Shown here piece after piece: positions 51,765-54,807 of a DNA stretch of 64,000 bases (positions are counted from its first letter, which is position 1; the number at the start of each line of letters is the position of its first letter). The DNA is from Brachybacterium sp. P6-10-X1 (GTDB taxonomy: Bacteria > Actinomycetota > Actinomycetes > Actinomycetales > Dermabacteraceae): assembly GCF_001969445.1 (NCBI RefSeq), contig NZ_CP017297.1, positions 1,984,001 to 2,048,000 of the forward strand. The letters are read 5' to 3'. A model generated the notes under the pieces. It had not been told where the DNA came from. It worked only from the letters and a program-made list of their open reading frames with translations, and did no database searches. Both the position numbers and the translations under genes were made by a program.

Positions 51765-53552
<1,788 letters not shown>

Positions 53553-53553
53553 G

Positions 53554-53599
53554 GATCAGCTCCGGATCACGAGGAAGCGGTGAGGGGCGGGGGCTGATC
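53554..53599 (-). promoter_or_regulatory. Putative translational attenuator: inverted repeat that masks the ABC-F ribosome site
   Basis: On the minus strand GATCAGC (53599-53593) overlaps the stop codon of the MRL frame, and its exact complement GCTGATC (53560-53554) lies between the GGAG ribosome site and the ATG of the ABC-F gene. If paired, the start region is hidden. A ribosome held on the MRL frame would cover the first arm and free the start. Mechanism is inferred from this geometry. Confidence 0.6.
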
Positions 53600-53609
53600 A
53601 CAAGCGCAT
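53598..53609 (-). CDS. Three-codon leader frame MRL upstream of the ABC-F gene
   Basis: ATG CGC TTG TGA at 53609-53598, seven bases after the TACACT hexamer, so transcription is expected to start at its ATG. The peptide MRL matches the first residues of the macrolide-arrest motif MRLR known from erm leaders. The stop codon overlaps the first arm of the inverted repeat that covers the ABC-F start. Too short for a coding-statistics test, so it rests on position. Confidence 0.5.
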   Translation of the reverse strand: MRL

Positions 53610-53616
53610 GGGAGCG

Positions 53617-53656
53617 AGTGTAAGGATCCGGCGACGGCCGCGTCGAGGGAATTTCC
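53617..53656 (-). promoter_or_regulatory. ABC-F promoter with AT-rich WhiB7-like element
   Basis: -10 TACACT (53622-53617), 18-base spacer, -35 TCGACG (53646-53641), and AAATT three bases upstream of the -35 (53654-53650) in an otherwise very GC-rich stretch. WhiB7 activates promoters with an AT-rich motif directly upstream of the -35, as for resistance genes in other actinobacteria. Assignment is by pattern. Confidence 0.5.
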
Positions 53657-53747
53657 GCAGCCCGTGCAGCGCCTGCTGGTCATGCCGAGCCGGGTGCACC
53701 CGCCGGGCGCTCAACAGGCGCCGAGCCTGGTGCACCGGCTGGGCGTA

Positions 53748-53794
53748 CGGTCCGACGTGTCGGACTGACTCGTCCCATCCGACACGTCGGACCG
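53748..53794. repeat. Perfect 17-bp inverted repeat downstream of murQ
   Basis: CGGTCCGACGTGTCGGA at 53748-53764 faces its exact complement at 53778-53794 around 13 bases. Two further variants of GTCCGACG-type words flank it up to 53825. It may terminate murQ transcription before the ABC-F promoter. Confidence 0.6.
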
Positions 53795-53829
53795 CACCGA
53801 CCGCCCTTCCGACGCGTGGGACCGAGTGG

Positions 53830-54807
53830 TCACGGCCCGGCCGGCTCGTCGGTCCCTTCTCGCAGGGCCGCGACGGCCGAGCGGATCCCGGCGGGGTCAC
53901 CGACCCGTCGGGGGTCCCGGGGGTGATGCGCCAGCGCGGCCTCGGCGGCGGTGACGTCGACCTCGGCGAGAAGGGCGACCAGGGCGGGCCGGACGCTGCC
54001 GGCGGCGGCCTCGAGCACCTCCGCGGCCCGCTCGGCGCTCTGACCGGTGGCCTGCACCAGCATTCGCACGGTGCGGCCGACGAGCTTGGCGTTGGTGGGA
54101 CGCACGTCGATCATGAGGTTCCCGAAGGTGGTGCCCAGACGCACCATGGTGGCGGTGGACAGGGCGTTCAGGGTGAGCTTCTGGGCGGTGCCGGCCTTCA
54201 TCCGGGTCGAGCCGGTGACCACTTCGGGGCCGACGTCCAGCAGGATCGGGATGTCCACAGCGGAGGCGAGCTGCGCCTGGGGGTTCGCGGAGATCAGCGC
54301 GGTCGGCAGGCCCCGCTCGCGGGCCTCGGCCAGGGCGCCGCGCACGAAGGGGGTGCGACCGCTGGCGGCCAGGCCGACGACGACGTCCCCGAGCTCGCAG
54401 TTCTGCGCGACCAGATCCGCACCGGCGTCCGCATCGTCCTCCGCGCCTTCGACGGCGGCGAGGAAGGCGCCCGGGCCGCCGGCCAGGTGCGCGGTGACCA
54501 TGGACTCGTCCGCGTTGAAGGTGGGGGCGAGCTCGACCGCGTCGAGCACGGCCAGCCTCCCCGAGGTGCCGGCGCCGACGTAGTGGACCGTGCGCCCGCC
54601 AGAGATCGCGCTGACGCACACCTCGACCAGCTCGGCCAGGGGCCCGGCCTGCGCCTGGACGGCCGCGGCGACGGTCGCGTCCTCGGAGAGGATCACGTCC
54701 ACCATGCCGCGGGCATCGAGCGCGTCCAGCTCGGCGCTGGCCGGGTTGCGCTCCTCGGTCGGGGAGGCGAGGTCCACCAGGGCCGTCGCATCATCGGGGT
54801 CGGTCAC
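53830..54807 (-). CDS. murQ: N-acetylmuramic acid 6-phosphate etherase
   Basis: Cytosolic SIS-domain lyase of 325 residues that splits the lactyl ether of MurNAc-6-phosphate to give GlcNAc-6-phosphate, a step in cell-wall recycling. The conserved start SPTEERNPASAELDALDA, the SIS loop VHYVGAGTSGRLAVLDAVEL, and LVGLAAS-like VVVGLAASGRTPFV and GPEVVTGSTRMKAGTAQKL are all family marks. GTG at 54807 follows AGGAG. Divergent from the N-acetylglucosamine kinase-like gene, which would complete the recycling pathway. Confidence 0.95.
   Translation of the reverse strand: MTDPDDATALVDLASPTEERNPASAELDALDARGMVDVILSEDATVAAAVQAQAGPLAELVEVCVSAISGGRTVHYVGAGTSGRLAVLDAVELAPTFNADESMVTAHLAGGPGAFLAAVEGAEDDADAGADLVAQNCELGDVVVGLAASGRTPFVRGALAEARERGLPTALISANPQAQLASAVDIPILLDVGPEVVTGSTRMKAGTAQKLTLNALSTATMVRLGTTFGNLMIDVRPTNAKLVGRTVRMLVQATGQSAERAAEVLEAAAGSVRPALVALLAEVDVTAAEAALAHHPRDPRRVGDPAGIRSAVAALREGTDEPAGP

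Follow-up and report, generated by a model that had tools for sequence, protein, structure and literature searches.

A predicted leaderless three-codon frame and a start-masking stem precede an ABC-F gene in Brachybacterium and suggest a compact translation attenuator

The window, the whole analysed stretch of 64,000 nucleotides from Brachybacterium sp. P6-10-X1 (NZ_CP017297.1, positions 1,984,001 to 2,048,000), contains an ABC-F gene preceded by a compact leader, in which all elements are situated on the minus strand in the order GAAATT-CCC-TCGACG-N18-TACACT-N7-ATGCGCTTGTGATCAGC-...-GGAGCTGATCC-ATG. The gene begins 277 nt behind a same-strand open frame ending at 53830, which we take to resemble murQ. 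An earlier start of the ABC-F gene is excluded by an in-frame TGA six bases before 53552. The features of the locus, in window coordinates, are the following.

51765..53552, minus strand: ABC-F ATPase of 595 aa, with the TlrC/CarA/OleB/SrmB ribosomal protection proteins as the nearest named model
53554..53560, minus strand: 3' arm GCTGATC inside GGAGCTGATCCATG, between the Shine-Dalgarno sequence and the ABC-F ATG
53560..53563, minus strand: Shine-Dalgarno sequence GGAG of the ABC-F gene, whose last G opens the 3' arm; GGAG is invariant in 30 of 30 genus leaders
53593..53599, minus strand: 5' arm GATCAGC, at +11 to +17 from the first base of the upstream frame, sharing GA with its stop codon
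53598..53609, minus strand: upstream frame ATG CGC TTG TGA (Met-Arg-Leu-stop) ATGCGCTTGTGA, predicted leaderless and present in 30 of 30 genus orthologues
53617..53622, minus strand: -10 element TACACT (TANNNT), with TANNNT in 29 of the 29 genus leaders that have sequence there
53641..53646, minus strand: -35-like TCGACG, with an 18-nt spacer to the -10, a poor match to the consensus and weakly conserved in the genus
53650..53655, minus strand: GAAATT, an AT-rich motif of WhiB7/WblC type 3 bp upstream of the -35 (published consensus GAAAWY, PMC7157823)

The ABC-F protein possesses two ABC domains. The best NCBIfam model, TlrC/CarA/OleB/SrmB, scores 348 bits against a curated cut-off of 800, followed by the general ABC-F protection model (284, cut-off 380) and CarA (242, cut-off 1050), while the EttA and Uup models score 192-210 and the Msr, Sal, Vga, OptrA and Lsa models 127-156. 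Because no listed ABC-F model reaches its cut-off, we infer ribosome protection as the likely function, the protein standing nearest to the producer-type macrolide protectors. TlrC itself is assigned to ARE4, which protects against macrolides and streptogramin B (PMC10201436).

The earlier note had read a WhiB7-like promoter in front of the gene (AAATT three bases 5' of TCGACG, an 18-base spacer, TACACT and seven bases to the ATG), and all of these elements are found as described on re-reading the minus strand. From the start of the upstream frame to the start of the ABC-F gene the distance is 57 nt. WhiB7/WblC promoters are described with an AT-rich motif 3 bp 5' of the -35, a TANNNT -10 and a spacer of 16-19 bp (PMC7157823, PMC3905903), their -35 being less conserved (PMC7157823). 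The window promoter agrees with this description in the AT-rich motif, the -10 and the spacer, and its TCGACG departs from the -35 consensus TKGMNN at position 2. In 27 of 29 genus leaders, an AT-run of at least four bases ends 25-28 nt before the -10, which is the place of the WhiB7 motif, and WhiB7 with GVWGG and the AT-hook RGRGRPRK is encoded in the same genome (G000:C1:22133-22285); both bear out the proposed layout. A generic sigma-70 scan yields no promoter in 53400-53800. The promoter is WhiB7-like, short of a proven WhiB7 promoter, and would probably be controlled by WhiB7. The whiB7 gene itself (L188) is preceded by an AT-rich promoter, GTCAAAAAATAG ... TAGACT, and inspection by eye shows a frame of roughly 35 codons upstream of the gene, with a Shine-Dalgarno sequence in front of that frame, in agreement with published whiB7 leaders.

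In WblC promoters, transcription starts 7-8 bp after the -10 (PMC7157823), and by this rule the transcript is predicted to begin at the A of the upstream frame, position 53609. The start codon is located 6-7 nt after TANNNT in all 29 promoter-readable genus leaders, that is, at the expected transcription start, as had been proposed, and this distance fits a leaderless message. The genus search demanded a TANNNT near the frame, and no orthologue failed for lack of it; in one leader (L088) the promoter is cut off by the contig end, and the three-codon frame is present there too.

The upstream frame was followed through 38 genomes of the genus, of which 30 yielded an orthologue with the locus (60-100% identity); in G006 and G009 the orthologue was matched in two pieces of one open frame. 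Beyond these, one genome gave a split match (G018) and seven gave weaker matches only, four of the seven being less than 90% complete. All 30 orthologues carry a start codon (26 ATG, 4 GTG), two variable codons and TGA, so the minimal frame proposed earlier, exact in the window, recurs throughout the set. Eight different triplets occur at codon 2 and eight at codon 3, and the encoded peptides are MRL (12), MSI (5), MLL (3), MRI (2) and eight singletons. Furthermore, T10 of the TGA is invariant in 30 of 30 leaders though it lies outside the stem, and positions 1-3 are ATG or GTG only; hence, the frame is apparently read as a frame. On both strands of the 4.39-Mb genome, TANNNT-N7-RTG-N6-TGA occurs twice, one occurrence being this leader, against none for the backwards control, and the N6-spaced version occurs twice elsewhere, against two for its backwards control. 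The joint arrangement of frame, promoter and stem exceeds chance, and its conservation is the strongest evidence.

The start-masking stem is formed by GATCAGC and its exact complement GCTGATC between the GGAG and the ATG, as the earlier note had stated; the pair stands where it was placed, and the loop from arm to arm measures 32 nt instead of the 33 given there. In addition, the GG of the Shine-Dalgarno sequence is able to pair with a CC behind the 5' arm. The window leader folds at -20.6 kcal/mol (z -2.25), and 4 of 200 shuffles are equally good. The covariation alignment comprises 27 of the 30 genus leaders (26 distinct rows), the long-loop leaders L086, L100 and L110 being left out. In this alignment, 97.0% of 234 cells pair, and compensatory double changes are found at two stem pairs in five cells, A-U to G-C in four and U-A to G-C in one of the 26 rows. 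None of 500 shuffles, which take no account of relatedness, attains the covariation score or the share paired; against an attenuator, the number of double-change pairs is attained by 17 of 500 and the number of pair types by 390 of 500. Sliding the stem registers out of place lowers the pairing to 11-43%. The fifth pair is broken (C-C or C-U) in 6 of the 26 rows and the third (C-A) in one. The stem pattern TGATCNGC-N25..55-GGAGCYGATCC has a single match in the genome of the window, and across the 38 genus genomes it has 37 matches in 29 genomes; 25 of these matches fall at the ABC-F gene.

A search of Rfam with 15 loci at E up to 1, including the window leader (L081), gave three sub-gathering matches, none of them overlapping the window leader, and a known RNA family is rejected for that leader, as nothing relevant was returned. 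RNAalifold gave no consensus structure for 31 order leaders. No intrinsic terminator is present in 53400-53800; terminator-based attenuation is therefore rejected, and only attenuation of the translation type is claimed.

A search of the order found a relative at E up to 1e-78 in 95 of 396 genomes, and 72 order or family upstream regions were fetched (70 non-genus matches, G039, and the genus genome G018). Frames could be assigned in 56 of these, comprising 49 three-codon, four four-codon, one two-codon and two bare ATG-TGA frames, of which 53 end in TGA and three in TAG. Fifteen leaders with no confident frame were left out (L132, L134, L138, L148, L151, L154, L155, L156, L158, L161, L171, L173, L175, L177 and L182), L178 was left out of the helix count as no gene start was found, and some frames, plus the gene starts of L099, L160, L163 and L168, were placed by hand. 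Among the uncounted leaders, L151, L154, L155, L158 and L161 (family f19) contain, by eye, ATG AAG TGA far upstream of the ABC-F gene with a long intervening leader, and L148 a four-codon frame. TANNNT precedes the frame by 6-7 nt in 40 of 55 leaders outside the genus and by 8-10 nt in seven, and is absent in eight.

The arm sequences vary by family, for example ATCCTCA/TGAGGAT, GACCTGCC/GGCAGGTC, GATCTTCGT/ACGAGGATC, GTGATCTCCA/TGGAGATCAC and TCCAGCG/CGCTGGA. Pairing was scored as the longest helix joining the stretch from +4 to +30, counted from the frame start, with the last 24 nt ahead of the gene. Over 56 sequences, the mean score with the own partner is 16.4, compared with 12.9 over 300 partner permutations (maximum 13.8). 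The own partner ranks within the best 5% of foreign partners in 22 of 56 leaders, and against an attenuator it falls below the median in 10. An energy-based duplex analysis (own -16.7 versus -12.9 kcal/mol; 15 of 55 leaders with their own partner among the best 5%) was replaced because distal pairs blurred the arm position. Strong helices, defined as six or more pairs and a score of 14 or more, exist in 57 of 86 leaders. Of the 31 genus leaders, counted with L163, 24 have one, as do 33 of the 55 others; the 22 of those 55 that lack a strong helix count against the attenuator. Of the 33 strong helices outside the genus, 31 begin at +7 to +13 from the first base of the frame. When leaders were instead paired with foreign partners from other families, 2560 pairings gave 558 strong helices, 235 of them beginning in this range. 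Family f10 is an exception, with best arms at +21 to +23, beyond the footprint of a ribosome on the start codon. Within the loop of the masking stem, many families of the order have, by eye, an inner hairpin of near-constant sequence, approximately GTCCCGCGCCCGAGGC..GCCCGGCGGGA (L117, L118, L126 and L130). Its core CCCGGC was counted in the stretch from frame to gene in 30 of the 56 other leaders, compared with one of 30 genus leaders, and the hairpin may bring the arms together.

In the seven frames of other lengths, the best arm begins at +8 to +12, and in four of the seven the helix is strong by the above definition. Two leaders (L164 and L168, genus g58) have a bare ATG-TGA behind an AT-rich promoter, and their arms lie at +9 to +14 and +12 to +18; the arm of the two-codon leader spans +8 to +12, and those of the four-codon leaders span +8 to +14, +9 to +14, +8 to +12 and +12 to +16. 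The steady position across frame lengths suggests, in this small number, that the arm tracks the start codon and not the stop. This bears on the possibility that slow UGA termination is sensed, in which release-blocking drugs would hold the ribosome with the stop codon in its A site. Such a sensor would suit the TGA that ends all 30 genus frames and 53 of the 56 others, the bare ATG-TGA frames and the stop codon lying within the 5' arm in the genus and many relatives; it is at odds with the three TAG frames and with the seven leaders, where the arm stays in place while the stop moves from +4 to +13. TGA is moreover the common stop in such G+C-rich genomes, and sensing of termination is regarded as unlikely.

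Within the class, a search at E up to 1e-85 found a relative in 62 of 394 genomes, and 53 regions outside the order were fetched, four of them without a frame, leaving 49 to be scored. Frames such as MRN, MEL, MKL, MRI, MKN, ATG-TGA or GTG-ATC-TGA occur in many of them, with arms such as GACACCACC/GGTGGTGTC at +11. When frames were taken by the promoter alone, a helix of at least 8 beginning at +8 to +14 was found in 31 of 49 loci, against 8 of 33 other short frames, which lends weak support since the search region is wide. The class start codon is often located 9-10 nt after the -10, so that the message would have a leader of 2-3 nt, and four well-scored five-codon frames of family f45 misfit the arm geometry. 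In family f35 (L193-L196, L198, L199, L205 and L208), the 5' arm pairs over 14-15 nt around the core GACATCGAGACC/GGTCTCGATGTC, its partner ending 44-148 nt ahead of the first residue matched in the protein. Several members contain a similar CATCGAGGCC nearer the gene, perhaps forming a two-state switch.

The leader is probably a translation attenuator that reads ribosome arrest at the first codon or one to two codons later, a reading held with moderate confidence. From the sequence, conservation, covariation and geometry, which are directly supported, we infer the course of events. WhiB7 would raise transcription, with the A of the upstream ATG as the start point. A 70S ribosome would load on the leaderless ATG, make two peptide bonds, terminate at the TGA and depart, and on the ribosome-free leader GATCAGC would pair with GCTGATC, hiding the GGAG and the ABC-F start. 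A drug of the peptidyl-transferase centre would hold the ribosome at the start codon or at codon 2-3. A ribosome on the start codon reaches forward to about +15/16; the footprint of the held ribosome would thus cover most of the 5' arm, block the stem and allow the ABC-F protein to be made. A stem opened by a ribosome that has stopped on the first codons should lie at a constant distance from the start codon, and the geometry favours arrest at that codon or close to it. The frame would act as a landing pad that is vacated at once unless a drug holds the ribosome, and no particular peptide would be necessary. As a three-codon frame is quickly left unless peptide bonds are blocked, the switch would respond, mostly regardless of the peptide, to drugs that act no later than the first peptide bonds. 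The inducers would be lincosamides, pleuromutilins, streptogramin A and perhaps 16-membered macrolides.

Further observations count against such an attenuator. Arrest at the start codon is characteristic of lincosamides, pleuromutilins and streptogramin A, whereas the TlrC-type relatives of the protein protect against macrolides and streptogramin B. In addition, Leu or Ile occupies codon 3 in 27 of the 30 genus frames and in 26 of the 49 other three-codon frames. At codon 2, Arg accounts for 15 of the 30 in the genus, and Trp, Leu or Lys for 40 of those 49; some preference for residue or codon may therefore matter.

Control independent of the drug, in which the leader senses the general state of translation (free 70S ribosomes or starvation-slowed decoding) and WhiB7 gives the drug specificity, is an improbable reading. 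The WhiB7-like promoter means that transcription may already respond to drugs, and leaderless starts use 70S ribosomes (PMC9031893). Against it, codons 2 and 3 are biased yet specify many amino acids, so no single tRNA is read, and published three-codon frames before ABC-F genes respond to drugs (PMC12421871, PMC10201436).

The earlier note had taken Met-Arg-Leu for a macrolide signal; in this reading, drug in the tunnel and peptide together would stall the ribosome. The window and 11 other genus leaders do encode MRL, codon 3 leans to Leu or Ile, and the protein downstream is nearest to the macrolide-protecting TlrC/CarA/OleB/SrmB model. Arrest of the MRLR type, however, requires a sense codon after MRL, and here the stop codon follows directly. 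Across the relatives, MRL turns up in 12 of the 30 frames from the genus and in none of the 56 others; codon 2 is basic, acidic, aromatic, aliphatic or small, two frames lack it altogether, and the leaders encode, among others, MSI, MLL, MWI, VLS, MKL or the bare ATG-TGA. The idea of a conserved macrolide signal does not survive this comparison; an MRLR macrolide arrest leader is not supported, and any sequence-specific macrolide arrest is unlikely. That the inverted repeat is a DNA operator, with the short frame untranslated, is highly improbable: compensatory changes would also suit the site of a dimeric repressor, but the spacing from frame stop to gene start ranges from 39 to 90 nt in the genus, the arms change between families without shifting relative to the start of the frame, and in all 30 genus leaders the 3' arm reaches the Shine-Dalgarno sequence.

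An extension of the translation attenuator to the Actinomycetes is proposed tentatively, as something that may or may not hold: a widespread sensor of start-codon arrest that does without a particular peptide, whose 5' arm would lie at the front of a ribosome on the first codon of a leaderless or nearly leaderless message, and whose frame has in some lineages shrunk to AUG-UGA. If this sensor reading is true, any drug that freezes initiation or the first peptide bonds would be read, and sensing by distance predicts as inducers the drugs that stop the first peptide bonds.

The genome contains a second ABC-F gene (L257:157-1674, minus strand; G000:C1:976808-978037; leaders L245-L256), which encodes a protein of 505 aa scoring 267 bits with the general ABC-F model (cut-off 380). 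Its promoter has a similar AT-rich layout, with a predicted leaderless frame of 17-19 codons located 6-7 nt after TANNNT. In all 12 leaders fetched the frame ends R-P-R-x-R-R-stop; the script sought an R-x-R-R end, and the 12 were picked from the stronger paralogue matches. Such an end resembles the macrolide arrest peptides of the +x+ type, and the leader looks like a peptide-specific arrest leader, perhaps macrolide-sensing. The peptide end is conserved in the second leader, whereas no one peptide is kept in the three-codon leader, and two sensing modes could be compared in one organism.

Among known systems, the MRLR-type macrolide leaders of erm and msr genes combine a short frame with a start-masking stem, and their peptide is conserved and needed; compared with these, leaders of the window's kind vary in peptide, and the stop follows MRL. 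The polycysteine leaderless attenuators of mycobacteria, reportedly described by Canestrari in 2020, are said to use a short frame that controls the gene behind it by attenuation and to read the cysteine supply through Cys codons. They share the leaderless short frame with the window, whose frame contains no Cys codons. In Firmicutes, the cplR, vmlR and vmlR2 leaders have three-codon frames (consensus MR[I/M], MIN and MK[L/Q]) before ABC-F genes, for which little context specificity is expected; in cplR, Shine-Dalgarno masking contributes as in the window, and the upstream region, unlike that of the window, is 212 nt long and has an intrinsic terminator (PMC10201436).

A close counterpart in Actinobacteria, to which WhiB proteins are described as exclusive (PMC6282962), is the are5sc leader of Streptomyces coelicolor. 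Like the window leader, it has a three-codon frame (MLV) before an actinobacterial ABC-F gene; it belongs to the WblC regulon, and toeprints place drug-held ribosomes at the start codon of the frame (PMC12421871). Unlike the window leader, it possesses a 232-nt 5' UTR, its own ribosome binding site, a TTG start and a predicted terminator/antiterminator, and reporters place its control at transcription (PMC12421871), whereas the window has no terminator and its Shine-Dalgarno sequence would be directly masked. The mycobacterial ABC-F gene Rv1473/OcrA is likewise an actinobacterial gene under WhiB7, according to a title cited in PMC9159947, and the portion of that paper drawn on here mentions no leader of the three-codon kind. 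In the literature searched, mostly open papers, we came across no account of a leaderless frame ahead of an ABC-F gene.

As the three-codon leaders of are5sc, cplR, vmlR and vmlR2 are published, the principle is already known, including stalling at the start codon. The features that appear new, on the evidence of sequence comparison, are the predicted leaderless start, the WhiB7-like promoter, the plain masking of the Shine-Dalgarno sequence without a terminator, and the minimal size. The comparison supports a hint given by the published leaders, namely that selection acts mainly on the distance from start codon to stem and not on a fixed peptide, and the 57-nt part would provide a very small tool for studying the arrest of leaderless initiation.
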